Shown here piece by piece: positions 1-64,000 of a stretch of DNA of 64,000 nucleotides. Origin of the DNA: Bacteroidales bacterium (GTDB lineage: Bacteria > Bacteroidota > Bacteroidia > Bacteroidales > UBA932); NCBI GenBank assembly GCA_017423025.1, contig JAFPGC010000045.1, positions 1-64,000 on the forward strand, read 5' to 3'. A program made the translations under genes and the position numbers. The notes beneath the pieces were generated by a model. It ran no database searches, was not told the DNA's origin, and saw nothing but the letters and a program-made list of their open reading frames with translations. Within the stretch, counting starts at the first letter, position 1. Every line of letters begins with the position of its first letter.

Positions 1-978
1 ATCGTCGCCTATAGCTTGGCTAGTAGTCTCGACAGTAGAGTACTGATGGTCCATAAAGCTCCATATACCGGTACTCTTGGTATATTGCAGGTTGCCCTTC
101 GAGAAATATACCTTATCCGTGCTGCTCACGCTGAACTGGCCGATAAGGGCACCGGGAATAGCATTCCTCGTGATGTTGTAAATCTTGCCTGCCTCGACTC
201 GTTTCGTGCTGCTGACGAGGGTGATATCATTACCTCCCACTGTCAGGGAGAGACTATATAAATCAGTATAATCCGCTAAACCCATAGCAAATGTTGCGTT
301 GCCCGAGCCGTCCGTTGTTACTAATCCAGTAATCGCAAGTGTACTACCATTAGTTAATGTTGCAGTGACCTCAGTGCTGGGCGTCAACCCGGTGATGGTG
401 AAGTTGAGAATGGCATATTGGGGACTCAGGGCAAAGCCACTTGAATATGAACCTGCTGCCTCACAGCTAAACTGCTCAACTGCCAATGCCTTGGTGGAGG
501 CAAAAGTATTGTTATTATTAAAACCAATAGAAGCCGAATAACCATCTTCTGATATAGATAAATACCCGTATGTTGTATAGTCGTTAGGCAGGAGAATGGC
601 ATAGACATAGTAGCTCGATTGGGCTGCTGTGAAAAGTGCATCAACAGTGCCGGTGTACGCTTCCTTGGTAGTAATAGTGCCACTGAATGTTCCTTCAGAT
701 ACCCAATCCAGTATGCCGGCAAATAAGCCTGCAGTTTCGTGGTTACCTTTCACAAACAGCTTGTCGCCATCGCTGAAGGCGAGTGAACCGGTACCACCGC
801 CGTTGTCGGTATATGTGGCCTTGGTGGCATCGTCACCCTCACGGGTTACGTTTACAGTGACAGGAAGGGCAAAGCCTTTCTTATCGGCGTTCTCATCGTT
901 CGCAATCTCGTTTTTGTTGCAGGCGGTGGCGAGCAGCATGGCAAATGCCAGCGCTTTAATGAAAGTATTTGTTCTCAT
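1..978 (-). CDS. Surface lipoprotein, fimbrillin-like / FGE-like Bacteroidales family (3' end outside window)
   Basis: The reading frame starts at ATG 978 and stays open to base 1 (326 codons), so the C-terminus lies outside the window. Residues 1-20 form a signal peptide ending in a lipobox (LLATAC), so an outer-membrane or surface lipoprotein is likely. Residues about 45-290 are rich in Thr, Ser and Gly with short beta-type repeats, as in Bacteroidales surface proteins. From about residue 295 comes a stretch containing KVYFSKGNLQY and then a W-x-F motif, which I recognise as a domain common in Bacteroidales secreted proteins of unknown role. The start overlaps the stop of the small ORF at 978-1103 (TAATG), which suggests translational coupling. 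Base composition is more AT-rich than the rest of the window. Function unknown. Confidence 0.7.
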   Translation of the reverse strand, partial: MRTNTFIKALAFAMLLATACNKNEIANDENADKKGFALPVTVNVTREGDDATKATYTDNGGGTGSLAFSDGDKLFVKGNHETAGLFAGILDWVSEGTFSGTITTKEAYTGTVDALFTAAQSSYYVYAILLPNDYTTYGYLSISEDGYSASIGFNNNNTFASTKALAVEQFSCEAAGSYSSGFALSPQYAILNFTITGLTPSTEVTATLTNGSTLAITGLVTTDGSGNATFAMGLADYTDLYSLSLTVGGNDITLVSSTKRVEAGKIYNITRNAIPGALIGQFSVSSTDKVYFSKGNLQYTKSTGIWSFMDHQYSTVETTSQAIGDD

Positions 979-1103
979 TAGATAGTCTCCTCCATAAAAA
1001 TTCCATCCATAGTGGATGTAACTTCTCCGCTGGTGCAGATGACGCCTTCCTGTTTCATCTCCACAACACTAATTGTGGGGGCTTCGTAAAGTTCTTTTTG
1101 CAT
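978..1103 (-). CDS. Small protein of 41 aa upstream of surface lipoprotein
   Basis: ATG at 1103, stop TAA at 980-978, giving 41 codons. The peptide begins MQKELYEAPTISVVEMKQEG and continues with a VICTSGE motif. From memory, short Bacteroidales proteins with a Y-x-x-P-x(6)-E-x(3)-E-G-V-[IL]-C-x-S-G pattern often sit just upstream of surface lipoproteins; their role is unknown to me. There is no signal peptide or membrane segment. The TAATG overlap with the next gene argues that it is really translated. It could be a secreted or processed peptide, or simply a leader that couples translation. Confidence 0.55.
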   Translation of the reverse strand: MQKELYEAPTISVVEMKQEGVICTSGEVTSTMDGIFMEETI

Positions 1104-1533
1104 AGTATTATTTGTTGATTATTAGAGTCTTTTGGACACAATGGCGGTAAAAATAGAGAAAGTGACCCTGAAAAACAATGGGGGGGGGTAAAATTTGACG
1201 TAAAGTCAAGAAATCAATGCAAAAATTGACGCAAAGTTGATTTTACGCGTTTTGAAACATGGTTTGGAACGTGTGAAACAACAAAAAATACCCCAGGTCA
1301 CGGGGCGTAAGCTGTGGAACGGAACAAACAGTATTGAGCAACCAGAGAGACTGACTTATTTGTGCATCTATTCATTTCCTTCGAATAATTCCACTGCTGG
1401 ACGGAGTTTTCCGAAAATTCTCAAATTTTAATCTGTCGTTTTTCCAAAAAATCTCAAAATTTATATCACTCATGGACAATGCAATCCTCTGCAATCCAAT
1501 CCGTTCCATGTTTGTTAACTGTTGGAGTCACAG
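1104..1533. other. AT-rich intergenic region with G9 tract and paired repeats
   Basis: No convincing gene is seen here; an open frame at 1237-1431 has no family resemblance and unlike codon use. The region contains a run of nine G at 1180-1188 about 80 bp upstream of the small ORF start, and two imperfect 15-bp copies of TTGACGYAAAGTYRA at 1195-1209 and 1226-1240. Both lie where the - strand promoter of the lipoprotein operon should be. Confidence 0.5.
1195..1240. repeat. Two direct 15-bp repeats, possible operator
   Basis: TTGACGTAAAGTCAA at 1195-1209 and TTGACGCAAAGTTGA at 1226-1240 are spaced 31 bp start to start, about three helical turns. The first copy is also partly palindromic (TTGAC...GTCAA). 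This is the pattern of a pair of regulator sites upstream of the lipoprotein operon. No regulator gene is adjacent. Confidence 0.4.
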
Positions 1534-1567
1534 AAAACCCCGTCTGACAGTTTGAGATGGGGCTTTT
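1534..1567 (-). terminator. Rho-independent terminator after the alkylation-repair gene
   Basis: CCCCGTCT (1538-1545) pairs with AGATGGGG (1555-1562), with A4 on one side and CTTTT on the other. It follows the stop codon of the - strand gene by about 20 bp and has flanks that could work in either direction. Confidence 0.65.
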
Positions 1568-1583
1568 CGTTAGGGTGCTTAAA

Positions 1584-2300: not shown

Positions 2301-2322
2301 CTTACATAGACAAACGCTACAG

Positions 2323-2347
2323 CAAAGATAATAATTTTGTATCTTTA
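2323..2347. promoter_or_regulatory. Divergent promoter boxes for alkylation-repair gene and GH2 gene
   Basis: On the - strand, TATCTTTG (2330-2323) fits the Bacteroidetes -7 consensus TAnnTTTG. On the + strand, TATCTTTA (2340-2347) fits at all but the last base and lies 20 bp before the GH2 start. Confidence 0.5.
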
Positions 2348-2367
2348 GCCTGTCAAACACTCGGAAT

Positions 2368-4779: not shown

Positions 4780-4802
4780 TTGGCAGTCCGGATGAAAAGT
4801 AA

Positions 4803-4810
4803 TATCTTTG
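4803..4810 (+). promoter_or_regulatory. -7 promoter box of the TlpA-like gene
   Basis: TATCTTTG matches TAnnTTTG and lies 33 bp upstream of the ATG at 4844, which supports that ATG as the start. Confidence 0.55.
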
Positions 4811-4843
4811 CAAACCTTTGAAAAACAGATAAAACTAAAGAAT

Positions 4844-7044: not shown

Positions 7045-7050
7045 ATGGGA

Positions 7051-8844: not shown

Positions 8845-8902
8845 GGCATAAAGTTAGTGAAAAAATTCTTTAAAAAATTATGTGGGGTGTCTTAATTTTT
8901 AC

Positions 8903-8910
8903 TAACTTTG
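8903..8910 (+). promoter_or_regulatory. -7 promoter box of the carAB operon
   Basis: TAACTTTG fits TAnnTTTG. Transcription from here would give a leader of about 125 nt before the carAB ATG at 9045. No TTTG box is seen at the usual distance upstream. Confidence 0.5.
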
Positions 8911-8953
8911 CATCCCGTGAGTAGTGTAACAAAGAGTCCTTTTTGTGTCCTTG

Positions 8954-8971
8954 TGTCCGCCCGGCCGGACA
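8954..8971 (+). promoter_or_regulatory. Leader hairpin upstream of the carAB terminator
   Basis: TGTCCG (8954-8959) pairs with CGGACA (8966-8971) around CCCGGC. Its CCGGCCGG core could pair instead with the CCGG arms of the terminator at 9007-9032, so the two hairpins could exclude each other. Alternative pairing is inferred, not shown. Confidence 0.35.
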
Positions 8972-9006
8972 TCGTTGCACCGACATCTATAATATCCTAT
9001 ATCATA

Positions 9007-9040
9007 CCGGTTCTCCCCGATGGAGGAACCGGCTTTTTTT
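9007..9040 (+). terminator. Terminator-like attenuator directly before carAB
   Basis: CCGGTTC plus TCC pair with GGA plus GAACCGG (one bulged G), followed by CTTTTTTT. The U tract ends only 4 nt before the ATG. A terminator between promoter and start codon with no other promoter after it is the arrangement of an attenuated leader. Confidence 0.55.
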
Positions 9041-9044
9041 GTGT

Positions 9045-17040: not shown

Positions 17041-18321
17041 ATGGAACAGAAAAAGTTAGACGTAGTGCTCGGTCTCCAGTGGGGAGACGAAGGAAAAGGT
17101 AAGGTGGTGGATGTGCTCACCCCGGCCTACAACGTGGTAGCCCGTTTCCAGGGTGGTCCCAACGCGGGCCATTCGCTGGTGTTTGACGGGGACCATTTTG
17201 TGCTCCATACGGTCCCTTCCGGCATCTTCCGCAAGGGAACGGTGAACGTGATCGGCAATGGCGTGGTCATCGATCCGGTCATCCTGATGGAGGAGATTTC
17301 CGAGATTGAGAAGAGGGGAGTGGACGTTAGCGACAAACTCCTCATCTCCAAACGTGCCCACCTGATCCTTCCCACGCACCGTGCTCTGGATGCCGCCAGC
17401 GAAAGCGCCATGGGCAAAGCCAAGATCGGCTCTACCCTCAAGGGCATCGGCCCCGCCTATGCCGACAAGACCGGTCGCAACGGCCTCCGCGTGGGGGATA
17501 TCCTCCAGGCCAATTTCCAGGCCCTGTACGAGTCCCGCAAGCAGCGTCATCTTCTGCTTCTGCAGCAGTATCCGGCCTATGAGAGCCCCTTCGATTTCGC
17601 TACCTACGAGCAGGAGTGGTTCCAGGCTGTGGAACAGATGAAGCGTTTCCCCTTCATCGACAGCGAAGTTTATGTGAACGAGGCTTTGGAGAAGGGCGTT
17701 TCCATTCTGGCCGAGGGTGCCCAGGGTTCCCTGCTGGACATTGACTTCGGCACCTATCCCTACGTCACATCTTCCAACACCCTGTCGGCCGGCGTCTGCA
17801 CGGGCCTGGGCATCGCCCCTTCCCGCGTAGGCCGGGTCTACGGCATCTTCAAGGCCTACTGCACCCGCGTGGGCAGCGGTCCCTTCCCCACGGAGCTCTT
17901 CGACGAGGACGGCGAGCGCCTGCGCCAGATCGGCCACGAATTCGGTGCTACCACCGGACGTCCCCGCCGCACCGGCTGGCTGGACATGGTTGCCCTCAAG
18001 TACACGGTGATGATGAACGGCGTGACGGACCTCATCATGATGAAATCCGACGTGCTGGATGAATTTGACACCATCAAGGTGGCCGTGGCTTACAAGGAAG
18101 GCAACCAGACTACCGACCGCTTCCCGTACGACGGAGGCAAGAACGTTACTCCTATATATAAGGAATTCCCCGGCTGGAAAACCCCGCTCAGCGACCTGCG
18201 CAAATATGAGGATTTCCCCGAGGCCTTCAAGAACTATATAGCCTACATCGAGGCCGAAACCAAGTGCCGCATCTCCATAGTCTCCGTAGGACCGGACCGC
18301 GACGCGACGGTCGTCCGCTAA
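17041..18321 (+). CDS. purA: Adenylosuccinate synthetase
   Basis: 426 residues from ATG 17041, 16 bp after purF. GLQWGDEGKGK at 11-21 is the GTP and IMP-binding N-terminal motif; GGPNAGHS, EGAQGSLLDIDFGTYPYVTSS and TTGRPRRTGWLD are all present. It condenses IMP and aspartate with GTP, the first step from IMP to AMP; PurB at 20907-22202 completes it. The frame is open upstream into purF, but the family N-terminus fixes this start. Confidence 0.95.
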   Translation: MEQKKLDVVLGLQWGDEGKGKVVDVLTPAYNVVARFQGGPNAGHSLVFDGDHFVLHTVPSGIFRKGTVNVIGNGVVIDPVILMEEISEIEKRGVDVSDKLLISKRAHLILPTHRALDAASESAMGKAKIGSTLKGIGPAYADKTGRNGLRVGDILQANFQALYESRKQRHLLLLQQYPAYESPFDFATYEQEWFQAVEQMKRFPFIDSEVYVNEALEKGVSILAEGAQGSLLDIDFGTYPYVTSSNTLSAGVCTGLGIAPSRVGRVYGIFKAYCTRVGSGPFPTELFDEDGERLRQIGHEFGATTGRPRRTGWLDMVALKYTVMMNGVTDLIMMKSDVLDEFDTIKVAVAYKEGNQTTDRFPYDGGKNVTPIYKEFPGWKTPLSDLRKYEDFPEAFKNYIAYIEAETKCRISIVSVGPDRDATVVR

Positions 18322-18341
18322 AAAAAGGGTAAATAAAATTT

Positions 18342-18421
18342 CTGGTTGGATTTCTCTCTGAAGAGATAGATATCTTACTTCGGTGAAAGGGAGGATGTGG
18401 TTGGAAAAGCCGCACCCTCCC
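18342..18421 (+). repeat. Post-purA element: strong hairpin and repeat blocks
   Basis: CTGGTTGGATTT (18342-18353) and GTGAAAGGGAG (18383-18393) recur, in the opposite orientation, at 20822-20852 downstream of purB. A strong hairpin follows, GGGAGG (18389-18394) with CCTCCC (18416-18421), extended inward by TGTGG and CCGCA. There is no T run, so it is not a clear terminator. Its role is unknown. Confidence 0.4.
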
Positions 18422-18474
18422 TGCGCCAAGGTTTGTACGACAAAAATAGGTTTGCGATGATAAATTCCGTAAAG

Positions 18475-19110
18475 ATGAAAAAATTAGCTTGTTTTGTATC
18501 ACTCCTGCTCACGGCAGCTGCCGTCCTGGCCCAGACACCCCATCAAATCCTGACCCGCATGGAAGAGGAAATGGGAAAGCATCAAGGTGAGGGGATGGCC
18601 ATTACCGTAGACCTGAAAATGCCCGTTTTGGGGACCATCAGCACCCGCACCATTACGTGCGGTGAAAAGATGCGCATGGAAACGAGCGTGAGAAAAAACA
18701 AGGTGGTGGTGTGGTCGGACGGCAAGACAAACTGGACCTACAACGCCAAAACCAACGAGGTGGAAATCAAGAATTCCTCCCGCGAAAGCAAAAGTAAGAA
18801 AAAAAGAGGCAGCGACGATGCCAAGATGTTCACCGGCATAACCGACGGATACGACGTCTCTATCCAGAAAGAAACGGCCGACGCCTGGTACATCCTCTGC
18901 ACCAAGTCCAAGGACAACAAAGACGAGGACGACCCCAAGACCATGGACGTAGTGGTAGCCAAAGGTACTTTCTACCCGAAGAGCCTGAGTACCAAAATGT
19001 CCGGGATGACCATGACTCTCCGGGATATCTCCTACGGAATCACGGAGGAGCAAGTGAGCTTTCGGCCGGAAGAATTTCCGGGCGTCAGAATTGTAGATAA
19101 ACGCGAATAA
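18475..19110 (+). CDS. Periplasmic LolA-like outer-membrane lipoprotein carrier family protein
   Basis: 211 residues with a signal peptide ending near LAQ (residue 20). The mature part is a half-barrel-type beta protein with RMETSVRKNKVVVWSDGKTNWTYN, the segment by which LolA/LolB-like proteins are usually recognised (WSDGKTxWxY). A Lys/Ser/Asp-rich loop, SRESKSKKKRGSDDAK, lies in the middle. Such proteins carry lipoproteins or other lipids across the periplasm; Bacteroidetes have several LolA-like paralogues, so the exact cargo is open. An alternative start at 18457 would add six residues. It stands alone between purA and the convergent small lipoprotein. Confidence 0.7.
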   Translation: MKKLACFVSLLLTAAAVLAQTPHQILTRMEEEMGKHQGEGMAITVDLKMPVLGTISTRTITCGEKMRMETSVRKNKVVVWSDGKTNWTYNAKTNEVEIKNSSRESKSKKKRGSDDAKMFTGITDGYDVSIQKETADAWYILCTKSKDNKDEDDPKTMDVVVAKGTFYPKSLSTKMSGMTMTLRDISYGITEEQVSFRPEEFPGVRIVDKRE

Positions 19111-19226
19111 ACGCCTGAAATATAATTATCCTGGCAATATTCTTGTTGAAGTATGGTCTGGATTTGAAGATAGGTCTTTCTTTTTTTCAAATTGCTAAAA
19201 TAGTGAAAATAGAATTAACGCGTAAG

Positions 19227-19340
19227 TTAATTGAAAGCATGCCCACGGAATTTTGCGTGTGACCCAAAATCCGCCTCGTGTTTCATGCACGACATCGCCA
19301 GGCAGGCTGCAAGGATAAACAGGGATGCGACTCTTTTCAT
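19227..19340 (-). CDS. Small lipoprotein, 37 aa
   Basis: ATG at 19340, TAA at 19229-19227. Residues 1-17 are a compact signal peptide (Lys-Arg start, hydrophobic core) with the lipobox LAMSC and Cys18 as lipid site. The predicted mature part is 20 residues, rich in His and Phe, with charged residues mixed in. It begins 33 bp after the stop of the glycosyltransferase on the same strand, so the two are probably cotranscribed. No family is recognised. It may be a true tiny lipoprotein or the surviving 5' end of a decayed lipoprotein gene. Confidence 0.5.
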   Translation of the reverse strand: MKRVASLFILAACLAMSCMKHEADFGSHAKFRGHAFN

Positions 19341-19373
19341 CGGTTTGTGATAATTTACAATAGATATTTATTC

Positions 19374-20663
19374 CTATGCCCGGGAAGAGGTCGGGGGGAC
19401 GTCGTACTTATAATGTCGGGTGGGTTTCCATTTCACGCGGAGGAACAGCGCTGCGACGAGCACCGGCGCATAGAGATAGATTCCCAGGGGAAAAAGGAAC
19501 ATGTACCACCACTTCTTCCAGGCAGCGGCGTGGATCCGGCGGTAGCACTGGAGCATCAGGATCAATCCATCCAGGAATACCGCAGCGTAAGGATAAAAGA
19601 AACTGCCTACGCCGATGTTGAGGCACTCTGAGAAATAGACTTCTGCCGGAACCGAGCAGACGGCGGCATAGACGGCGCCGATGAGGGGCGAAATAATAAA
19701 CCAAAGGTAGGCAATGGCCGGCAGCGGCAAGATATGGACCAGAATTCCCCATTTGGTGAGGCTTGGGCGGCGGAGGAAAGAGAGGATCATCTCCATTCCC
19801 CTGCGCGCAAAAATCTGATGGATTCCCCTGCACCAGCGAAGTCGCTGGCGGATGGTGTCCCACAGGGAGCAGGGCTGTTCGTCATAGAATACGGCGTCCG
19901 TACAGTAGGCTATCTTGCCGCCCCGGGCGGTATAATCGGCGGAGAGTTCAATGTCCTCTGTCAGGGTCCGGTAGGGCCAGCCGCCGGCCTGCCGTATCAG
20001 ACCTTCGGCAATCAGAAAACCCGTTCCTGAGACAAAACTGCCTATGCCCAAGGCCGCGCGGCTGTAGTGGATCTGCCGGGATTCCCTGAGAAACATGTAA
20101 CTATTTACTCCGGATACCCAGTTCGCCGAAAAATTCTTGGAGTCGCGGAAGCCGGACACGATTTCTTCTCCGCTGTCGAAAACCTTGTTCATCTGGGAGA
20201 TATAGTCCGGTGCAAGGACATTGTCTGCATCAAAGATAAAATAGCCCTCCGCACCGGGTGCGGGATCCATCGAAAGAATCCTCTTGAAAGCATAATCCAG
20301 GGCGTAGCTCTTGCCTATTTCCAGCGGATTGTCACGTACAAGGACATGAACGCCCTTCCCTCTTGCAATCTCAGCCGTACGGTCGGAACAATTGTCCGCC
20401 ACCACGAAAACCTGCAGCAGTTCCTGCGGATAGTCCTGCCGCTGGATACTGTCAATGAGGTCTCCGATAACGACCTCCTCATTGTTGGCGGGGATAATAC
20501 AGGCGTAAGCATGCCGCCTACGGGCGTCCGGCCACGTTTTTTTCCTGAGGAAAATACTTGTGACCATATGGAACAACTGATTACAGTAAATCACGGTCAA
20601 GGCAACTACCAGGACCATGCTTATCAAGTACATGAATCTAAAAAATCCTACACTGAATTCCAT
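19374..20663 (-). CDS. Membrane glycosyltransferase family 2
   Basis: 429 residues. An N-terminal transmembrane helix (about 10-35) precedes a GT-A fold: CIIPANNEE, the nucleotide-binding start; IFDADN, a D-x-D type metal motif; TEDIELSAD with the likely catalytic Asp; and QRLRW, the Q-x-x-R-W motif of processive enzymes. Three or four transmembrane helices lie in 300-415. The arrangement resembles BcsA/PgaC-type synthases and other membrane GT2 enzymes that transfer sugars from UDP donors and may extrude the product. The donor is not readable from sequence. A -7 box TATATTTG lies at 20709-20702. Confidence 0.82.
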   Translation of the reverse strand: MEFSVGFFRFMYLISMVLVVALTVIYCNQLFHMVTSIFLRKKTWPDARRRHAYACIIPANNEEVVIGDLIDSIQRQDYPQELLQVFVVADNCSDRTAEIARGKGVHVLVRDNPLEIGKSYALDYAFKRILSMDPAPGAEGYFIFDADNVLAPDYISQMNKVFDSGEEIVSGFRDSKNFSANWVSGVNSYMFLRESRQIHYSRAALGIGSFVSGTGFLIAEGLIRQAGGWPYRTLTEDIELSADYTARGGKIAYCTDAVFYDEQPCSLWDTIRQRLRWCRGIHQIFARRGMEMILSFLRRPSLTKWGILVHILPLPAIAYLWFIISPLIGAVYAAVCSVPAEVYFSECLNIGVGSFFYPYAAVFLDGLILMLQCYRRIHAAAWKKWWYMFLFPLGIYLYAPVLVAALFLRVKWKPTRHYKYDVPPTSSRA

Positions 20664-20701
20664 TAATGACAGTTATTTCATGGGAGCTTCGCCCGTAAAA
20701 C

Positions 20702-20709
20702 CAAATATA
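20702..20709 (-). promoter_or_regulatory. -7 promoter box of the glycosyltransferase gene
   Basis: CAAATATA on the + strand reads TATATTTG on the - strand, fitting TAnnTTTG, 39 bp before the ATG at 20663. Confidence 0.45.
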
Positions 20710-20779
20710 GCGCTGCGTAGAGCCATTTTTGTAAAAATAACATTTCGCAGGCACACTTGCAAATTTCCGGGTATAAATA

Positions 20780-20898
20780 TTTGTAGGGACGGTAAATCAA
20801 GGGTATCTTTGCATAGATACTCTCCCTTCACTGAAATGGAAAATCCAACCAGATTTTGCGGTTAGCCAAAAAAAGGCGACTCAAAAAAGAGTCGCCTT
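20780..20898 (+). ncRNA. Candidate small RNA locus with its own promoter
   Basis: A full Bacteroidetes promoter is readable: TTTG (20780-20783), 20 bp, TATCTTTG (20804-20811). Transcription would start near 20818, and the first strong hairpin on the way is GGCGACTC/GAGTCGCC (20875-20896). The product of about 80 nt includes the reverse complement of the repeat blocks seen after purA. The only open frame is nine codons. The T run on this strand is poor, so termination is uncertain. Confidence 0.35.
20873..20898 (-). terminator. purB terminator
   Basis: A perfect 8-bp stem GGCGACTC/GAGTCGCC has a six-base loop and is followed on the - strand by a run of seven T. It lies 10-30 bp after the purB stop. 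Confidence 0.8.
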
Positions 20899-20906
20899 CT
20901 TCATCT

Positions 20907-22202
20907 TTATTGGATTCCCACTCTGGAGAAGATCTCGTCGACGTTCTTGAAGTAGTAGTCCAGGGTGAAGCAGTTGTCCAGCTCCTCCTGGGTTAGCTTA
21001 CCCATGACATCGGCCGATGCTTCCAAAAGGGTCTTGTAGTCCTTGTTGTTGGTCCAGGCGTCCATGGCGATGGGCTGCACGGTATCATAAGCCTGTTCGC
21101 GGGAGAGACCCTTGGCGATGAGGGCGTTCATCACGCGCTGGGCGAAGATGACTCCGCGGGTGCGGTAGATGTTGGCCAGCATGGTCTCGGGATACACCAC
21201 CAGGTTTTCCAGAACGTCCTTGAAGCGGGTAAGCATGTAGTCCAGCAGCTCCGTGGCGTCCGGGAGGACGATGCGCTCCGTGCTGGAGTGGGATATGTCA
21301 CGCTCGTGCCAGAGGGCTACGTTCTCGTAGGCCGTAGCCATATAACCGCGCATCACGCGCGCGCACCCGACGATGTTCTCGCTGCTGATGGGATTGCGCT
21401 TGTGCGGCATGGCGCTGGAGCCTTTCTGTCCTTTGCGGAAGGCTTCCTCCACCTCGCGGACTTCCGTACGCTGGAGGTTGCGGACCTCGAAGGCCATCTG
21501 CTCCAGGGTGGCGGCGATGAGGGCCAGGGCGCCTACGTAGTTGGCGTGGCGGTCCCTCTGCAGCACCTGGGTGGAGATATTGGCCGATGCGATGCCCAGT
21601 TTTTCGCAGACGTAGTCCTGGATGAAGGGCGGGATATTGGCGAAGTTGCCCACGGCGCCGCTCATCTTGCCGGCTTCCACGCCGGCGGCGGCATATTCAA
21701 AGCGCTCCATGTTGCGCTTCATCTCTTCGTACCAGAGGGCCCACTTGAGGCCGAAGCAGGTAATATCGGCATGGATGCCGTGCGTGCGGCCGATGCAGGG
21801 CGTTGCCTTGAACTCCATGGCGCGGCGGCGCAGCATTTCCATAAATTCTTCCAGGTCCTTGCGGAGGATGGCGTTGGCCTGTTTGAGCAGGTAACCGTTG
21901 GCCGTGTCCACCACGTCGGTGGAGGTGAGGCCGTAGTGGACCCACTTGCGCTCCTCGCCCAGGCTCTCGCTCACGGCACGGGTAAAGGCCACTACGTCAT
22001 GACGGGTCTGTTCTTCGATTTCCTGGATGCGTTTCACATCAAAGCGGGCATTGGCCCGGATCTTCTCCACATCTTCGGCGGGAATCACGCCCAGTTTGCT
22101 CCAGGCTTCGCAGGAGAGGGTTTCCACCTCCAGGTAGGCGCCGAATTTGTTCTCTTCGGTCCAGACGTCCCGCATGACTTTGCGGGAATAGCGCTCAATC
22201 AT
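20907..22202 (-). CDS. purB: Adenylosuccinate lyase
   Basis: 431 residues, the Bacillus-type length. The fumarase/aspartase superfamily signature [11 protein letters not shown] is at about residue 265; [17 protein letters not shown] holds the catalytic His, and [12 protein letters not shown] is also conserved. It splits SAICAR to AICAR and adenylosuccinate to AMP, so it serves both IMP synthesis and the AMP branch begun by PurA. It follows purC by 3 bp on the same strand and ends in a strong terminator. Confidence 0.95.
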
Positions 22203-46173: not shown

Positions 46174-47307
46174 ATGCGTACTAAGTATCTGTTTTTAGCC
46201 CTTCTGGCGGGCATTCTGGGCGCTTGCGCCCCCAGCCCCGAAGCGGCTTTTGAGAAGGACCTCGAAGCCTTCCGTCAGAAAATCGGGAATGTGGGCATGG
46301 CCGTGGCCGTGGTCAAGGACAACCAGATTGTCTACAGCCACGAATTTGGCGTAGCCAATCTGGAGACCGGGGCTCCGGTGAAGGAGAATTCCCTTTTCCG
46401 CATCGCCTCCATCTCCAAGAGTTTCAGCGCCACTTCCATGATGCAGCTCATTGAGAAGGGTCTGGTCACTCTGGATACGGATGTGAGTACCCTGGCGGGT
46501 TTCCCCATCCGCAACCCCAAGTATCCGGACACCGTCATCACCCTGGAAATGCTGCTCTCGCACACTTCCAGCCTGAACGACAGCGAAGGCTACTTTGTGC
46601 TGGACGTCATCAACCCGGACACCAATCCCAATTGGGCCAACTGCTACAACGACTATGCTCCCGGCACCGGGTACGAGTACTGCAACCTCAACTTCAACCT
46701 GGTGGGTACCTTCATTGAGAAACTCTCCGGAGAAAGGTTCGACCAGTATGTGGTCCATCACGTGCTGGAACCGCTGAATCTTTATGGCGGTTATTGCGTA
46801 GATTCCCTGGACGCTTCCCGTTTCGTAAGCCTCTATTCCTATGAGAATGGGGAATTCGTAGAGCAGACGGATGCCTACGAGCCCCGCAGCGAGCGCATTG
46901 CCAACTACAAGTTCGGCTACGACACGCCCGTCTTTTCTCCCACCGGCGGTATGAAGATATCGGCCTGTGACCTTGCCCGCTATATGATGATGCATATGGG
47001 GTGGGGGACTGCTCCGGATGGCACTGTCATCATTTCCGAGGCCTCTTCCCGCAGCATGCAGACCCCTCGCTCGGAGCCCGAGCACTACGGCCTGGCCCTG
47101 TGGCACGATTACGACAAGATTCCGGGCGTGGAACTGGTGGGGCACACTGGCGGCGCCTATGGTCTCCGCAGTGCCATGTTCTGGGCCCCGGACCGTTCCT
47201 TCGGCCTGGTCTGCATCTCCTCCGGCACTTACGGCGATTACGAGGACGAGCAGAGCGGAGTCCTGGAAGGCACCCTGCAGCTTATGTACAAGCATTTCTG
47301 CAAATAG
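46174..47307 (+). CDS. Serine hydrolase, class C beta-lactamase / PBP4* family, lipoprotein
   Basis: 377 residues with lipobox GILGAC (Cys18). Catalytic motifs are SISK at 79-82, Y-x-N in EYCNLNF, and HTGG near residue 325. The fold covers D-Ala carboxypeptidases, esterases and class C beta-lactamases; nothing here singles out antibiotic hydrolysis. It is in an operon with the M16 peptidase, which suggests a periplasmic peptide or wall-processing role. The tRNA-derived repeat begins 10 bp after its stop. Confidence 0.87.
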   Translation: MRTKYLFLALLAGILGACAPSPEAAFEKDLEAFRQKIGNVGMAVAVVKDNQIVYSHEFGVANLETGAPVKENSLFRIASISKSFSATSMMQLIEKGLVTLDTDVSTLAGFPIRNPKYPDTVITLEMLLSHTSSLNDSEGYFVLDVINPDTNPNWANCYNDYAPGTGYEYCNLNFNLVGTFIEKLSGERFDQYVVHHVLEPLNLYGGYCVDSLDASRFVSLYSYENGEFVEQTDAYEPRSERIANYKFGYDTPVFSPTGGMKISACDLARYMMMHMGWGTAPDGTVIISEASSRSMQTPRSEPEHYGLALWHDYDKIPGVELVGHTGGAYGLRSAMFWAPDRSFGLVCISSGTYGDYEDEQSGVLEGTLQLMYKHFCK

Positions 47308-47316
47308 AAATCTAAA

Positions 47317-47335
47317 GCACTCTTAGGGACTCGAA
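47317..47335. repeat. Distal attachment-site repeat (tRNA-Lys 3' end copy)
   Basis: GCACTCTTAGGGACTCGAA is identical to 49233-49251, the acceptor and T-arm part of the tRNA-Lys(CTT) gene. Here it stands alone, with no tRNA around it. Confidence 0.75.
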
Positions 47336-47605
47336 TTCTGATTTGACTTGAACCCATTTGATTCAGGTTGGAAAGGCCTATTATTATGTATACTGTTGAT
47401 TATTAATATATTGCTTGATAGATAATCTTTCGTTAAAAAATCAAGACAAATCAAACAAATTCAGAATAATTCGCAAAAGTCGACAAAAAGTCGACAAAAA
47501 TTTTCGTTTTGTAGTTATCTTTGCCATAGAAATACTATGGTGCCTATGGCACCTAAATCAAAGAACTACTTGTTTTTCTGAAAACAATCCGTACCTTTGC
47601 ATTAA
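47336..47605. other. AT-rich left part of the island without genes
   Basis: No gene is seen. It contains GTCGACAAAAA twice in tandem (47479-47489, 47490-47500), a -7-like TATCTTTG at 47516-47523, and the promoter box of the candidate small RNA at 47592-47599. Confidence 0.5.
47479..47500 (+). repeat. Tandem GTCGACAAAAA repeat
   Basis: Two perfect 11-bp copies in tandem; a third copy in the same orientation is at 49167-49177 near the other end of the island. Placement near both ends suits recombinase arm sites or termini of the element, but no recombinase is present. Confidence 0.5.
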
Positions 47606-47669
47606 CAGAATTTAGGGGCAAGGAACAGAGACCGTCTAGAACCGGAGAGTTCCTTGCTCCGCTTTTTTG
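47606..47669 (+). ncRNA. Candidate small RNA with terminator-like fold
   Basis: -7 box TACCTTTG at 47592-47599 precedes a sequence in which GGGGCAAGGAAC (47615-47626) pairs with GTTCCTTGCTCC (47649-47660), with an inner CCG/CGG helix, followed by GCTTTTTT. A transcript of about 64 nt would be promoter to terminator with no open frame. It ends just where the convergent phosphatase gene stops. Confidence 0.45.
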
Positions 47670-47670
47670 T

Positions 47671-48120
47671 CTAAAGCGGCCGTAGGGCGGCTTCAATCTG
47701 GGTCAGTGAAGGAAGATGGCCGGTGGCGATGTTGTACTCGACATGGTTCCGGAATCCCTTGTACTCATCATCCGGCCAGAACCCGCACTTCCTGTAGTGG
47801 AAGCACTCGCACACGACGCGGCTGCGGTTGTCGCCGCCGATACAATGAACTATCGACGACATTCCGGCCTTGTCGACGTTTTCCAGGAGCTTCACAGTCT
47901 CGACGATATTAGACATACCCATGTCGACGTCATTCTCCGAAAGAGGCAAAAACTTCGTCGAGACGCCTTTCTCGTCGAAAGCACGCTGCATCTCGACGTC
48001 ATACTGCAGTTCCGATACGTTGACGACATTCTGGACGCGTCCGTAGATGAAGGGATTGGCAATCTCTTCCATCGTAGGGTACCAGCGGGCCTGGAGCTTG
48101 GCAAATGAGTAGGTCTTCAT
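47671..48120 (-). CDS. Tyrosine / dual-specificity phosphatase-like protein
   Basis: 149 residues from ATG 48120. HCIGGDNRS at 92-100 is the H-C-x5-R-S phosphatase loop (Cys93, Arg99), and the Asp residues in the SENDVDMG stretch (61-68) could serve as general acid. The length suits small cysteine phosphatases; the rest shows no close family to me. The N-terminus MKTYSFAKLQARWYPT is not a signal peptide, so it is cytoplasmic. It lies in the tRNA-Lys island, after a leader of about 120 nt from a -7 box at 48256-48249. It could act on phosphoproteins or on nucleic-acid ends, as some small CX5R enzymes do. Confidence 0.65.
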   Translation of the reverse strand: MKTYSFAKLQARWYPTMEEIANPFIYGRVQNVVNVSELQYDVEMQRAFDEKGVSTKFLPLSENDVDMGMSNIVETVKLLENVDKAGMSSIVHCIGGDNRSRVVCECFHYRKCGFWPDDEYKGFRNHVEYNIATGHLPSLTQIEAALRPL

Positions 48121-48256
48121 CTTCCGAATGAAAAATCCTCCCCCGTAGGGGAGGAATGGTATCACGAAGGCCCCGTGAAACTGCGGTACTGTCCCGCAGA
48201 GGTCCATGGACCATCCGGTCTTCTCCGGCTATTGCCTGGAGTCCGATGCAAAGATA
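48121..48256 (-). promoter_or_regulatory. Promoter and structured leader of the phosphatase-like gene
   Basis: -7 box TATCTTTG at 48256-48249. The leader includes a perfect hairpin TCCTCCCC-CGTA-GGGGAGGA about 20-40 nt before the ATG, which could hinder translation or stabilise the mRNA. Confidence 0.4.
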
Positions 48257-48500
48257 GGAAAAATCTGGTTAATTCGCAGGCTTCTCAGGCTTTTCCTTCA
48301 CTATAAGTAAACTACAAAAAGGGTATATTCTTCTGAATAATCAGGTTGCCGAATATACACCTTCGCCCTATAAATAAATTCTTCTTCCCTCCCCTCGAAG
48401 GAGTGTCCGTCGCACACCCCCCATCCTTGCAACGAAGAGAGGAAGAGGGAGGGGCAAAGCCCCGACCCGGCGAGCGCCGCCATTTTGCGAAAAAAATCCT
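48257..48500. other. Island interior without genes
   Basis: No supported gene. The stretch 48390-48460 is rich in CCCTCCCC/GGGAGGGG blocks that could fold on each other (CTTCCCTCCCC near 48388 and GGGAGGGGC near 48448), enclosing ACACCCCCCAT. Confidence 0.4.
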
Positions 48501-48531
48501 TTTGTCTTTTATATATAAATCGTTACCTTTG
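48501..48531 (+). promoter_or_regulatory. Promoter of the HigBA remnant
   Basis: TTTG (48501-48504), a 19-bp spacer and TACCTTTG (48524-48531) form a complete promoter just before the toxin fragment. Confidence 0.6.
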
Positions 48532-48532
48532 G

Positions 48533-48619
48533 GGCAATAAGTTCAGCCCTAAGCTTGTGTACATCCGTTTTGTGGGAACTCACGGCGAATACGACAAGAT
48601 TGACGCATCAACCATATAG
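48533..48619 (+). pseudogene. higB: HigB toxin fragment (C-terminal end only)
   Basis: The frame ending in TAG 48617-48619 encodes VYIRFVGTHGEYDKIDASTI, which I recognise as the C-terminus of HigB-type mRNA interferases (x-x-I-R-F-x-G-T-H-x-E-Y-D-K-I-D). The first 70 or so residues, including most of the catalytic fold, are missing; the promoter abuts the fragment, so a deletion removed the 5' part. It cannot be an active toxin. Confidence 0.7.
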
Positions 48620-48669
48620 TACAAAAGATTATGGCACAGATCAAGGACTAAAAACAGTACAAGGCCTTG

Positions 48670-48996
48670 ATGGCCCGTATTGACCAGCTTTTCTTTGAGA
48701 CGGACGAGAAAACACCCGCCGATGATCCTCGTCTTCAGGAACTGGACGTACTTTCCGCCCTGGTGGAAGAGTATGAGAAGGAACACTACGCAATTGAGGC
48801 ACCTACGCTTTCTGAGACCATGAACGCCCGTTTGACAGAGAACAAATGGAGCCAGAAGCAACTGGCTGCCATTCTGGGAATTACGGCGCCTCGCCTTAAC
48901 GCCATCCTGAGCGGGAAAGCCAATCCCACCTATGAACAGGCTCGAATCATCTCAACGCGCCTGAATATTGACCCCGCGATTGTTCTGGCAGTTTGA
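48670..48996 (+). CDS. higA: HigA-type antitoxin, XRE family, with disrupted N-terminus
   Basis: 108 residues from ATG 48670. The helix-turn-helix is in NKWSQKQLAAILGITAPRLNAILSGKANPT, as in HigA partners of HigB. The family's usual start, ATG 48631, is followed after six codons by TAA (48649-48651) in the same frame, so the normal first 13 residues cannot be joined to the rest; restart at TTG 48667 or ATG 48670 would keep the DNA-binding domain. With the toxin broken, it would be an orphan regulator of its own promoter or a decaying gene. Confidence 0.7.
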   Translation: MARIDQLFFETDEKTPADDPRLQELDVLSALVEEYEKEHYAIEAPTLSETMNARLTENKWSQKQLAAILGITAPRLNAILSGKANPTYEQARIISTRLNIDPAIVLAV

Positions 48997-49075
48997 CCAG
49001 TTCCAGAAGTTGCCAATCTTCCAAGATTGTTTTGTATATCACTGGCAAAAGATTCTTAATTACCCTATATCGTAC

Positions 49076-49113
49076 AAAGGGCGCAAGACCATCTCTACGG
49101 TCCTGCGCCCTTT
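49076..49113 (+). terminator. Terminator after the HigA remnant
   Basis: AAAGGGCGCA(A)GACC pairs with GGTC(C)TGCGCCCTTT around an eight-base loop. The stem is long and symmetric, so it could serve in both directions. Confidence 0.6.
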
Positions 49114-49166
49114 ATCTTGCGTGTACATTTTTGTTACCTAACACTTGAAATGTGACCGACTCCTAA

Positions 49167-49177
49167 GTCGACAAAAA
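49167..49177 (+). repeat. Third GTCGACAAAAA copy
   Basis: Identical to the two tandem copies at 47479-47500 and in the same orientation, 55 bp inside the tRNA-proximal end of the island. Confidence 0.5.
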
Positions 49178-49189
49178 TCCCAAAGAAAA

Positions 49190-49222
49190 AAGCTAAGTTG
49201 CTGTTAATTCGCAACTTAGCTT
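49190..49222 (-). terminator. Terminator of the tRNA-Lys transcript
   Basis: AGCTAAGTTGC (49191-49201) pairs with GCAACTTAGCT (49211-49221); on the - strand it is followed by TTTTTTC. It lies 10 bp after the 3' end of tRNA-Lys(CTT), inside the island boundary, so the island restores termination. Confidence 0.7.
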
Positions 49223-49231
49223 CTTTAGAAG

Positions 49232-49304
<73 letters not shown>

Positions 49305-49322
49305 AAACAGTCTGGTTTTTTG

Positions 49323-49395
49323 TGACCCGTTCGGGGCTCGAACCCGAGACCCCAACATTAAAAGTGTTGTGCTCTACCAACTGAGCTAACGAGTC
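49323..49395 (-). tRNA. tRNA-Lys (anticodon TTT)
   Basis: 73 nt without encoded CCA. The acceptor stem is GACTCGT/ACGGGTC with one T-G pair; the anticodon arm CAACA-CTTTTAA-TGTTG gives TTT. It is 18 bp upstream of tRNA-Lys(CTT), so the two are cotranscribed. -7 box TACCTTTG at 49424-49417. Confidence 0.93.
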
Positions 49396-49416
49396 CTCCG
49401 TCCCAAATCGGGATTG

Positions 49417-49424
49417 CAAAGGTA
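49417..49424 (-). promoter_or_regulatory. -7 promoter box of the tRNA-Lys pair
   Basis: CAAAGGTA reads TACCTTTG on the - strand, 22 bp before the 5' end of tRNA-Lys(TTT). Confidence 0.5.
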
Positions 49425-49472
49425 GTTACTTTTTTTGAAAAAGCAATACCAAAATTAACTTTTTTCAAAAAG

Positions 49473-49494
49473 ATTCCCGGTCGTGGCCGGGAAT
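49473..49494 (-). terminator. manC terminator
   Basis: ATTCCCGG/CCGGGAAT stem with a six-base loop, followed on the - strand by CTTTTTG. It lies directly after the manC stop. Confidence 0.7.
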
Positions 49495-49498
49495 GACG

Positions 49499-50539
49499 CT
49501 AAGCACTGAATTCCTTGATGTGCTGCTCTTGCGAGAGACGGCAAACCAGGAGACGGTCTTTGGATTCGGCAACTATGTATCCGTCAAGGCCTTCCACTAC
49601 AACCGTCTTCTCGGAGGCGGTGTGGACAATGCAGTTCTGGCAGTCGAAAAGGCGCACATCGGTGCCCACGGCGGAGTTGCCGTCCTCATCGGCCTTCAAG
49701 TGCGTCTGGATAGAGCCCCAGCTGCCCAGATCGCTCCAGGCGAGGTCTTCGGCAATGACGTAGATGCGCGGGGACTTCTCCATGACGGCGTAGTCGATGG
49801 AGATTTTTTCACAGGTGGGGAAGAGCCGATGCAGTTCTGCGCTCTCCTGGTTAGTGAAGAAGGAGGGGGCCAGCTGGTCCATCACGCCGGCAATCTGCGG
49901 GGCGTAGGCGCTCAGTTCCCTTATAATAGTATTGATGTTCCACACGAAGATGCCGGCGTTCCAGAAATAGTGGCCGTCTTCCAGGTATTGGAGGGCGGTG
50001 TCCAGGTCCGGTTTCTCCTTGAACTCGCTCACTTTCACCAGCTGGCCGTGCAGGGCTTCGGCGGCGTGGATATAGCCGTAACCGGTTTCCGGACGGGAGG
50101 GTGCAATTCCCACGGTAACGATGGCGTCCCGCTCCTGGGTGAATGCCAGGGCCTTGGCTATGGTTTCTGCAAACTCGGCGGTTTTGAGCACCAGGGCATC
50201 GGCCGGGGTGACCACGATGTTGGCCTCCGGGTCCTTCTTCTGGATTTTCCAGGAGGCGTATGCGATGCAGGGGGCCGTGTTGCGGCCTTCGGGTTCGGCC
50301 AGGATCTGGTCCTCCGGGATGGCGGGCAGCTGCTGCTTCACCAGGTTTACATACTTCTCTCCGGTAACCACCCAGAAATGGTCCGGGGCACAGACCGGGG
50401 CGAAGCGGTCCACGGTGAGCTGGATGAGGCTGCGGCCCACACCCAGCACGTCTATGAATTGTTTGGGTACGTCCGGTGTGGAAAGCGGCCAGAGCCTGCT
50501 CCCAATCCCGCCGGCCATAATGACTACGTGTGTATTCAT
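49499..50539 (-). CDS. manC: Mannose-1-phosphate guanylyltransferase
   Basis: 346 residues from ATG 50539. VVIMAGGIGSRLWPLS is the nucleotidyltransferase start; FKEKPDLDTA and GYGYIHAA are typical of GDP-mannose pyrophosphorylases; WSDLGSWGSI completes the active site. There is no C-terminal isomerase domain, unlike the long ManC/AlgA type. It makes GDP-mannose for glycans or GDP-fucose. It follows the EF-hand-like gene by 25 bp. Confidence 0.9.
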   Translation of the reverse strand: MNTHVVIMAGGIGSRLWPLSTPDVPKQFIDVLGVGRSLIQLTVDRFAPVCAPDHFWVVTGEKYVNLVKQQLPAIPEDQILAEPEGRNTAPCIAYASWKIQKKDPEANIVVTPADALVLKTAEFAETIAKALAFTQERDAIVTVGIAPSRPETGYGYIHAAEALHGQLVKVSEFKEKPDLDTALQYLEDGHYFWNAGIFVWNINTIIRELSAYAPQIAGVMDQLAPSFFTNQESAELHRLFPTCEKISIDYAVMEKSPRIYVIAEDLAWSDLGSWGSIQTHLKADEDGNSAVGTDVRLFDCQNCIVHTASEKTVVVEGLDGYIVAESKDRLLVCRLSQEQHIKEFSA

Positions 50540-58787: not shown

Positions 58788-58834
58788 ACCTCAAAGATAA
58801 ACAATAATGGCGATTTTTCACTATATTTATCCCT

Positions 58835-60193: not shown

Positions 60194-60209
60194 TTCAAAA
60201 CCAACCCAT

Positions 60210-61544: not shown

Positions 61545-61556
61545 ACTATTCCGGAA

Positions 61557-62384: not shown

Positions 62385-62398
62385 GATAGCCCGGGGAT

Positions 62399-64000
62399 AT
62401 GAAACTCCTTCTCGTCATAACCATCGGCGGCCTTCTGGGCCACGCTGTCGACACTGGCTACGACGGCCGCCTGTCGCAGTATATAACGGGGCCGGAGAGT
62501 TATGCCATCCACCTGTTCAGCCCGGAGATGGTGGCCCAGGGAAAAGGCGGCTGGCAGGGAGAACATGCCGGCAAGTGGATGTATACCGCCGCAAAGGCCT
62601 ATGAGCGCACCGGAGATCCCGTACTTAGGGAAAAACTGGTTTCCGTGGCCGATTATCTGCTGTCCCTTCAGGAGGAAAACGGCTACCTGGGCTGTTACGG
62701 GGAGGACAAACGCTACTATCACCGCCCCGGCCCCGAGGAAATGAAGGTGGACTGGGACACCTGGATCATGGCGTATCTTATCAAAGGTTTCACCGAGGCC
62801 AGTGTAGCGTTGGACCAGCCCCGTTATGCCGATTGCGCCCTGCGTATTGCCGGATTCCTGCATTGGACCGTCTTTGACCAGGGAATCAAGATAGCCCAGA
62901 CCGGGCAGCACAGCGGCATGGCCGGCTGCGGCATCCTGGATCCGCTCTGCGACCTCTATCTCCTGAGGCCGGAGCCGGTGGTGAAAGAACTCATAGACCG
63001 CTGTATCTTTGAACTGGACAACACCCCCTGCCTCCAGCTCATTTCGCTGGCCCGGAAAGGGTACGATGTTTCCCTCATCGGCAACGGGAAGATCTATGAG
63101 ATGAACCGCTGCCTCACGGGAATGGCCAAGGCCTTTCAGCTGTTCGGGGACACGCGTCTTCTGGAAGCCTGCACCCTGGCCTGGGAAAACATCCGCAGCG
63201 CCCATCTCACCACCCTGGGAGGCCCCTGGGGCGGCATCAATTTCTGCTGGGAACTGTTCAACCGCCCGGCCGAGTGGGCCCCCTATGAGTGTACCGAAAC
63301 CTGCTCGGTGATGGAATGGATGCATTTCACCTGGGAGATGCTGCGCATCACCGGCGATGGGAGATATGCCGGGGAGCTGGAGAAAACCTGCTATAATGCC
63401 CTGCTGGCCGCCCGGGCCGATGACGGCCTGCGCTGGGAGTATTACGTGCGCACCAACGGGGAGCTCACCCCCAGGGGAGACTGGGCCTGCTGCTGGAGCA
63501 GCGGAATGACGGCCCTGGAAGACATCCCCGTCTATCTGTACGATACCCGCAAGGACGGCGTCTATGTGAATATCATCTCCGAATCCTCCTATGAGACGTC
63601 CGTAAAAGGGAATCCGGTGAAAATCTGCCAGAGCTCGGATTATGCCCGCAGCGGCAAGGCAGTTTTCGAGGTAGGCGGCCGGGGAAATTTCACCCTCGCG
63701 GTGCATCGGCCCGGATGGGCGCAGTCCTTCACGGTGAAAGTGAACGGAAAGGCGATGACGCCGAAGGAAAAGGACGGATACATCCGTGTCAAACGCTCCT
63801 GGAAGGATGGAGACCGCCTGGAAATCGAGTTCCCTTACGAGGTACGCACCCTGGAAAAGAGCTGGGAATACCGCAATGCCGGAAAGGACGAGTACAACTT
63901 CCCCAACTGGTACAACGGTTTCACCCGGCACTATGTCACTTTCTGTGCGGGCCCTCTGGTCTATGCCACCAACCACCAGGACGGTTTCGAGCATCCCAAC
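62399..64000 (+). CDS. GH127-like (DUF1680) glycoside hydrolase, 3' end outside window
   Basis: The frame runs from ATG 62399 to the last base (534 codons). The first 17 residues resemble a short signal peptide. An alpha/alpha-barrel follows, with GGWQGEHAGKWMY, the ECTETCSVMEWM segment, CYNALLAARADDGLRWEYYV and CCWSSG, the cysteine-rich motifs of GH127-type beta-L-arabinofuranosidases, in which Cys and Glu form the zinc site. A beta-sandwich begins near VYVNIISESSY. The real substrate may differ from arabinose, since DUF1680 is broad. Same operon as the GH29 gene. Confidence 0.82.
   Translation, partial: MKLLLVITIGGLLGHAVDTGYDGRLSQYITGPESYAIHLFSPEMVAQGKGGWQGEHAGKWMYTAAKAYERTGDPVLREKLVSVADYLLSLQEENGYLGCYGEDKRYYHRPGPEEMKVDWDTWIMAYLIKGFTEASVALDQPRYADCALRIAGFLHWTVFDQGIKIAQTGQHSGMAGCGILDPLCDLYLLRPEPVVKELIDRCIFELDNTPCLQLISLARKGYDVSLIGNGKIYEMNRCLTGMAKAFQLFGDTRLLEACTLAWENIRSAHLTTLGGPWGGINFCWELFNRPAEWAPYECTETCSVMEWMHFTWEMLRITGDGRYAGELEKTCYNALLAARADDGLRWEYYVRTNGELTPRGDWACCWSSGMTALEDIPVYLYDTRKDGVYVNIISESSYETSVKGNPVKICQSSDYARSGKAVFEVGGRGNFTLAVHRPGWAQSFTVKVNGKAMTPKEKDGYIRVKRSWKDGDRLEIEFPYEVRTLEKSWEYRNAGKDEYNFPNWYNGFTRHYVTFCAGPLVYATNHQDGFEHPN

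Follow-up and report, generated by a model that had tools for sequence, protein, structure and literature searches.

A Chi site converts RecBCD or AddAB from degradation to recombination when it is met in one orientation. Such words are GCTGGTGG in E. coli and GCGGTGGT for the AddAB of Caulobacter, and others are known from B. subtilis, L. lactis, S. aureus and H. influenzae; leading-strand polarity is the usual criterion by which they are detected, as in E. coli, but it is not universal. DNA-uptake words, for their part, usually carry a cloud of near-misses. Lineage-specific dialects of uptake words are known in Neisseriaceae (PMC3630211). Highly iterated palindrome 1 (HIP1) and the alternate HIPs are genome-wide palindromes tied to methyltransferases, with lineage-limited variants, and the model of Elhai (2015) combines the mark of an orphan methyltransferase with methyl-steered mismatch repair (PMC4390886). 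The E. coli Chi site occurs once per 5 kb, and the five species that the abstract of the same source names as having known Chi words include none from Bacteroidota (PMC8022716). Here we describe the heptamer GGCCGAT (ATCGGCC on the opposite strand) in a stretch of 64,000 bases, hereafter the window, from a Bacteroidales organism that likely lives in the gut. GGCCGAT is a real, lineage-limited and strongly driven DNA signal, and Chi, which a preliminary description of this stretch had not named, fits it best. As judged from titles and the openings of abstracts, our literature searches gave no description of GGCCGAT, nor of any Chi word in Bacteroidota.

The preliminary description had put the word at about 69 copies of GGCCGAT and 50 of ATCGGCC, and the sister word GGCCGAC/GTCGGCC, said to be scarcer, at roughly 20. 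Both statements hold: we counted 70 and 53 copies, about one per 520 bases, and 17 copies of the sister word in the whole window.

1..64000, both strands (70 on the plus strand, 53 as ATCGGCC): heptamer GGCCGAT, 123 copies, by direct count and codon shuffle of the coding regions
Plus strand, starts of GGCCGAT: 138, 2436, 5011, 5566, 6441, 7102, 7566, 7820, 9311, 9521, 9770, 12302, 12911, 13067, 15390, 16907, 21012, 21582, 21788, 22248, 22883, 24073, 24162, 24306, 25113, 25533, 25560, 26019, 26638, 29065, 29473, 30202, 32166, 32478, 33406, 33868, 34368, 36389, 36824, 36923, 37367, 37610, 37714, 38276, 39316, 40291, 40554, 40566, 40938, 43072, 44282, 45233, 45254, 51246, 52415, 52448, 53099, 53753, 54074, 54972, 55434, 56029, 58377, 58761, 59092, 59839, 60031, 60731, 62647, 63415
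Minus strand, starts of ATCGGCC: 2427, 5155, 7800, 10715, 11120, 11228, 11355, 12200, 12321, 13370, 15516, 15882, 17446, 17929, 21009, 22647, 24126, 25021, 25810, 26914, 27028, 27689, 30831, 32592, 33307, 33664, 34612, 34896, 38020, 39912, 41317, 41993, 42140, 42422, 43088, 46959, 49688, 50198, 51442, 51528, 51896, 52260, 54568, 55210, 55333, 55990, 57153, 57249, 58269, 59911, 60657, 62085, 63705

A preference for certain codons or codon pairs might yield GGCCGAT as a by-product; in favour of this, the commonest phase of the word is the preferred Ala codon GCC followed by Asp, and the next one consists of Ser and Ala codons. We therefore compared the coding regions, as called by our own simple codon-usage script (which has probably put a few genes on the wrong strand), with 200 within-gene synonymous shuffles that keep each protein and the codon use of each gene. 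The coding regions of the window contain 119 copies, against 23.6 expected (standard deviation 3.6, maximum 33). The excess beyond codon use claimed in the preliminary description, which was to fall if such a null gave about 100 copies, is thus confirmed. Under the same shuffle GGCCGAC is found 17 times (29.7 expected), GGCCGAG 23 times (23.0) and GGCCGAA 38 times (18.5).

The genome of the window (G000; 2,388,874 bases in 88 contigs, 87% complete) holds 2,086 + 1,980 = 4,066 copies, that is one per 588 bases, against 318 copies of the reversed word. In a sample of 647,825 bases of it, the coding regions have 1,046 copies against 201-206 expected, an excess of about fivefold and rank 1 among all heptamers, and GGCCGAT is likewise the top heptamer in coding DNA of G614 (453 versus 116 expected) and G606 (509 versus 100); these are the three best-sampled word-rich genomes. 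The observed and expected numbers in the G000 sample are 36/2.9, 5/4.7 and 541/103 for the phases of the forward word and 171/76, 27/6.5 and 266/12.4 for those of the reverse word, so that the enrichment extends to both orientations and five of the six reading phases. It is also seen outside genes, where 72,144 noncoding bases of G000 hold 54 copies and only 7 of the reversed word. Furthermore, the codon for Asp after Ala GCC depends on the preceding base, being GAT in 541 of 666 cases after G, 24 of 85 after C, 8 of 27 after A and 84 of 154 after T, and Ser before Ala is TCG in 80% of cases after A versus 12% overall. A by-product of codon preference is refuted by the within-gene synonymous shuffle, and the orientations, the phases, the noncoding copies and the dependence on the preceding base argue against it as well; we consider it hardly tenable.

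A position is called permitted where the protein sequence allows the word. G000 fills 1,046 of its 2,218 permitted positions (47%; 76% in one phase), G614 453 of 1,268 and G606 509 of 1,268, while the word-poor G683, G628 and G580, pooled, fill 33 of 387 (8.5%). Codon choice yields to the word at nearly half of the permitted places in G000. A drive at the amino-acid level was considered and rejected: the pair Ala-Asp stands at 1.15 of expectation in G000, 1.12 in G614 and 1.16 in G606, versus 1.05 and 1.03 in poorer relatives, which is a small effect.

The 21 one-mismatch words, pooled over the G000 sample, show no enrichment as a set (2,599 versus 2,522 expected), the highest of them being GGCCGAA (384 versus 204). 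Among octamers we found no longer core, only a mild 5' preference (enrichment 9.5 for G and 6.1 for C versus 4.2 and 4.1). At the 3' end, an extension to GGCCGATR had been suggested; the enrichment over the codon null is 6.4 before A, 6.1 before G, 4.9 before T and 2.3 before C, and R is no real extension. The low value before C agrees with GATC itself, which is found at 0.52 of the codon-shuffle expectation in G000 coding DNA. TCGA is depleted to a similar extent (0.51), and the five pentamers with the strongest depletion include CGATC, GATCA and GTCGA in each of G000, G614 and G606; old restriction pressure is a possible cause.

In G000 the copies are spaced close to randomly (coefficient of variation 1.06), with no regular spacing, and show no large-scale strand bias (heterogeneity between stretches: chi2 = 16.4, 19 degrees of freedom, p = 0.63; runs test: z = +2.8, +1.3 and +2.7). 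Locally, a copy and the next one are on opposite strands more often than a random filling of permitted sites would give: the fraction is 0.547 versus 0.494 in G000 (z = 4.0), 0.540 versus 0.490 in G614 (z = 2.2) and 0.563 versus 0.500 in G606 (z = 3.0). Pairs within 200 bases tend towards a deficit if on the same strand (z = -2.1, -1.0 and -2.6) and towards an excess if on opposite strands (z = 1.8, 2.6 and 2.5). A signal that is read in one direction, with one copy per stretch sufficing, would give such alternation, which is indirect evidence for a directional site. AddAB is reported to recognise its site in a directional manner, the probability being close to 0.25, and has been modelled as heeding one site only (PMC5443536).

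Some stretches are poor in the word. The 17 kb of L013:2871-19999 have 7 of 50 permitted sites filled; this stretch is AT-richer, has a low GC content at third codon positions, and looks foreign, with six of eight scanned proteins lacking a Pfam match. In the window itself the following were seen.

17929..21009, no strand: the sole word-free gap of more than 3 kb in the window (gap scan), 3,080 bases at 50% GC
46966..49687, no strand: word-free stretch with two tRNA-Lys genes, having only 2 permitted positions in the called genes that lie wholly inside it

The preliminary description had pointed to the second of these as an island lacking the word. Its zero copies are real, yet with only 2 peptide-permitted positions in its two wholly enclosed genes the absence says nothing. 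The word was rightly said to be sparse at the left end, where bases 1-2400 hold one copy (138) and bases 1-1600 have 45% GC.

G614 and G606 align with G000 at about 80% DNA identity; the former retains 52 of 128 aligned G000 words (0.41) and the latter 63 of 136 (0.46). Control heptamers, namely others that bear a CpG and have five G or C, are retained at 0.30 and 0.29, and 99 of 394 single control words (G614) and 42 of 432 (G606) do at least as well, so the conservation of the word is raised only moderately. Homologous sites that are not identical mostly differ from the word at two to four positions: one mismatch accounts for a share of 0.09-0.40 in six comparisons versus 0.44-0.49 for controls. 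The substitutions hit all seven positions and involve all letters. Copies thus tend to appear and vanish whole while the density persists.

Counts were made in 617 different genomes (295 of the order, 299 of the family and 30 of the genus, sampled from larger groups), and among these a high density is limited to part of one genus. After G000, most copies are found in G606; the maximum outside the genus is 1,367, in the 4.3-Mb G197. The 88 other genomes of the genus comprise 62 with 250-700 copies, 4 with fewer and 16 with more than 1,200.

More than 1,200 copies, with counts: G606 3,333, G614 2,598, G563 2,163, G560 2,049, G623 1,912, G682 1,864, G584 1,702
More than 1,200 copies, further genomes: G583, G557, G554, G592, G642, G633, G645, G375, G566

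The relatives represented by 80 named purL-region loci are uncultured Bacteroidales, many from ruminants or horses and some titled Candidatus Cryptobacteroides. GGCCGAT has rank 1 in 21 kb of G566 (19 versus 4.6 expected), rank 2 in G682, in G560 with G623 and in G375 with its sister, rank 2 also in the distant G691 (33 versus 14.6), rank 32 in 25 kb of G563 and rank 249 in G580 with G628 (30 versus 18.5); there is no enrichment in G683 or G539. A scan of 54 of the 80 named loci, in 16 groups, gave no word in other clades as clear-cut as GGCCGAT in G000. The best lead, though unproved, is the top heptamer of Alistipes-type loci (L206, L207, L210, L211, L214, L217, L220, L224-L226), TGCCGAG/CTCGGCA, with 205 copies versus 58; it shares the core GCCGA, and other words are enriched in these loci too. 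In L069, L140 and L157 (G375 and its sister) the top word is CCGATG/CATCGG (98 versus 38), which overlaps GGCCGAT in a shifted position and is possibly a dialect of it.

AddAB was compared across 21 genomes. Each of them has a match to PF12705, the AddB-type nuclease, and both AddA and AddB could be recovered from all 21. The genes of G000 are not adjacent.

C19:15765-18677, minus strand: addB of G000, 971 codons
C55:84731-87733: addA of G000, on the window's own contig, 20.7 kb beyond the right end of the window

The name AddB is based on sub-threshold NCBIfam matches, the PD-(D/E)XK domain and adjacency to addA in other species. It is based as well on the invariant cysteines C698, C960, C963 and C969, a pattern which we take to be that of AddB. 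One search by sequence against solved structures found no relative of AddB up to E = 1, and the four designed helical proteins that a second one gave, none better than E = 0.006, were regarded as chance matches.

Of the 21 genomes 11 are word-rich, and these come together in a single clade in the AddB tree as well as in the AddA tree (support 100 each). We extended the AddB tree to 45 sequences, from the 21 genomes and 31 further loci, 7 of these from genomes already included. This set is not random: the 21 were picked according to the density of the word and their position in the PurL tree, and 30 of the loci had given the best matches to AddB. All 12 genomes in which addA and addB are not adjacent are word-rich, and they make up a single clade (support 99). 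The 8 with whole-genome counts have 0.68-1.70 words per kb and a ratio of word to control of 6.5-12.8, and the other 4 a sampled observed/expected ratio of 3.2-5.5. Outside this clade, 32 of the 33 sequences come with a word/control ratio of at most 4.3 or a sampled observed/expected ratio of at most 2.2. They include a sister clade of eight with adjacent genes (word/control 2.3-4.3); of the remaining 25, all with adjacent genes, 24 stand at 2.7 or less (or observed/expected at 2.2 or less), and G566 at 10.3. Over 79 genomes (80 without G000 itself), the identity of AddB to that of G000 is correlated with the word/control ratio (Spearman 0.63). The 17 genomes with at least 57% identity have ratios of 2.3-12.2, and the 62 below have a median of 1.8, with only G375, G566, G523, G622 and G568 exceeding 2.9; the densities of G622 and G568 are low (0.29 and 0.27 per kb).

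We then compared these trees with those of other genes, for which the window supplies a species marker.

23845..27531, plus strand: purL-like gene for phosphoribosylformylglycinamidine (FGAM) synthase, with 8 forward and 5 reverse copies of the word (Pfam GATase_5, AIRS_C, FGAR-AT linker)

Among 22 genomes with purL, 7 are word-rich (observed/expected 3.2-5.5, the rest 0.6-2.2). Word-richness needs one change on the AddB tree, three on the PurL tree and two on a tree of six neighbouring genes, where forcing the rich genomes together is rejected (approximately unbiased (AU) test, p = 0.0026). AddA and AddB, though non-adjacent in the rich genomes, each give a single change with support of 99-100. 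The word-poor G580, G628, G692 and G693 nest within the rich species in the PurL and six-gene trees, whereas their AddB comes from three other parts of the AddB tree, far outside the rich clade, and grouping them with the rich genomes is rejected by both AddB (AU p = 1e-41) and AddA (1e-45). These close word-poor relatives carry foreign AddAB. G690, which lies with word-poor species in the PurL tree and among the rich in the six-gene tree, was excluded as an independent switch. Of nine non-AddAB genes taken singly, four reject a single rich clade (p < 0.01) and one gives p = 0.05; these trees were built from best BLAST hits, among which paralogues may be hidden. The pattern supports a swap of AddAB accompanied by loss of the word, although the support rests on few events.

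We think it slightly more probable than not that GGCCGAT works like a Chi site for the lineage of AddAB with non-adjacent genes. AddAB would enter at a break and degrade DNA until it met GGCCGAT in the readable direction; the word would then make it produce a 3' single strand for RecA instead, and DNA bearing the word would be spared and recombined. Repair, and recombination of donor DNA that has the word, would give each copy a local advantage, and copies would accumulate wherever synonymous change allows. A foreign type of AddAB taking the place of the old one would leave the word without a reader, and the word would decay. Going further, GGCCGAT may be the first word of the Chi type in Bacteroidota, of unusual density, and written and erased over thousands of sites as species swap AddAB, so that replacement of an enzyme rewrites codon choices within a genus; this wider claim is put forward tentatively.

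Several observations weigh against a Chi-like role. The identity of AddB also measures general kinship, hence its correlation with the word does not by itself single out AddAB, and in a partial Mantel test the value for AddB is weak (0.19, p = 0.026; PurL 0.02, p = 0.39). G566 is word-rich (0.71 per kb) despite a divergent AddAB with adjacent genes, G375 and G523 have raised counts at AddB identities of 51% and about 49%, and G691 shows its 33 copies versus 14.6 at rank 2 from outside the AddAB clade. One of the nine non-AddAB genes (32831-34153) also unites the seven rich species (support 83.5), and three of the nine do not reject a single rich clade. The cut between word-rich and word-poor was chosen after the values had been seen, and perhaps only one to three evolutionary events lie behind the link to AddAB. 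Low-occupancy stretches include the genes of EF-G and ribosomal proteins L2 and L4, so word poverty is not confined to foreign DNA. Finally, there is no replication-strand polarity, unlike in E. coli Chi. It is G566, the partial exceptions G375, G523 and G691, the few independent switches and the missing replication-strand bias that limit our confidence.

Potentially, the word is read by some other protein, for instance one that acts in the nucleoid, in repair or in segregation, and this protein happened to be kept or lost together with the AddAB type. Such phylogenetic hitch-hiking would accommodate G566, which is rich under another AddAB, as well as the one control gene of nine that groups the rich species and the three more that do not reject this; that there are only a handful of independent switches speaks for it too. 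On the other hand, AddA and AddB show a single change with high support, while PurL and three neighbouring genes reject a single clade, and 47% of permitted sites filled is beyond the expected need of a structural site; we regard hitch-hiking as rather unlikely. A DNA-uptake sequence, that is, a word preferred by the surface receptor of a natural-transformation system and spread by biased uptake and recombination, appears to us a little-favoured, improbable explanation. The density of one per 588 bases, the strand balance and the near-random spacing (coefficient of variation 1.06) do resemble uptake words, the dialects of Neisseriaceae (PMC3630211) offer a parallel for the limited distribution, G000 has a gene for ComEC, and natural transformation exists in Bacteroidota, in Riemerella (PMC8459023). 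However, the one-mismatch words are not enriched as a set, strand alternation is not expected of a signal without orientation, and an uptake signal is not predicted to follow the gene trees of AddAB as GGCCGAT does, with exceptions.

A word of the HIP1 kind, marked by an orphan DNA methyltransferase and with copies created or kept by methyl-steered mismatch repair, would agree with the recognition of the exact word without an excess of near-misses as a set, and with a density comparable in magnitude to published values for HIP1. The format of GGCCGAT, with an A one before the end, resembles the targets of MmeI and BREX, which we count in favour of this explanation. GGCCGAT is not self-complementary, though, and the palindrome that two overlapping copies form is rare.

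21009..21018, both strands: ATCGGCCGAT, an example of two overlapping copies on opposite strands; 12 such palindromes in 395 kb of G000

The substitutions between words and homologous sites, at all seven positions and with all letters, speak against it as well. A matching methyltransferase, which the preliminary description had proposed to look for, did not appear: the MmeI-type, Eco57I-type, N6/N4 and C5 families (PF20473, PF07669, PF01555 and PF00145) have no match in G000, which is 87% complete, type I and Dam families being outside the search. Overall, PF20473 is found in 15 of 40 genomes, PF07669 in 31 of 40, PF01555 in 8 of 21 and PF00145 in 7 of 21. We judge this explanation very unlikely. 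What stands of the earlier interpretation is a word iterated at the DNA level, in the broad class of HIP1, uptake sequences and Chi; the HIP1 or methylation kind is disfavoured, and uptake fits less well than Chi.

Two further observations concern the genes of the window. An open reading frame of 1,496 codons (8943-13433, plus strand) encodes a fused CarA-CarB, with carbamoyl-phosphate synthase small chain, glutamine amidotransferase, large chain and MGS domains. Opposite purL there is an open frame of 1,101 codons (24124-27429, minus strand), and other very long frames lie opposite genes too, because codons complementary to stops are rare (TTA 0.02, CTA 0.01 and TCA 0.02 of their amino acids).

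The number of Chi-type words described so far is small, and their joint evolution with the enzyme poses a question, since a change of the enzyme would strand thousands of sites. Here one genus has word-rich, intermediate and word-poor species with largely matching types of AddAB, in which such co-evolution could be followed. If the Chi-like role is true, it would offer a way into the study of recombination in uncultured gut Bacteroidales. The word is an example of a DNA signal that overrides codon choice at nearly half of the permitted places.

Compared with HIP1, GGCCGAT is likewise genome-wide, of similar density, present in genes of both directions and lineage-limited, but it is asymmetric, and four methyltransferase families are without a match in its genome. 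With DNA uptake sequences (DUS) and uptake signal sequences (USS) it shares the density, the strand balance and a dialect-like restriction, whereas it lacks an excess of near-misses as a set, alternates in strand and tracks AddAB. From Chi it differs in having no replication-strand polarity, in being about eight times denser than in E. coli (one per 588 bases versus one per 5 kb) and in being dense only in part of one genus, where it is apparently gained and lost with AddAB. Less clear-cut likenesses to Chi are that it is thin in at least one foreign-looking stretch (L013:2871-19999, 7 of 50), which is AT-richer too, and that it fits the type of AddAB, with exceptions. Like Chi, it is short, exact and over-represented far beyond codon use, and its local strand alternation fits directional reading.

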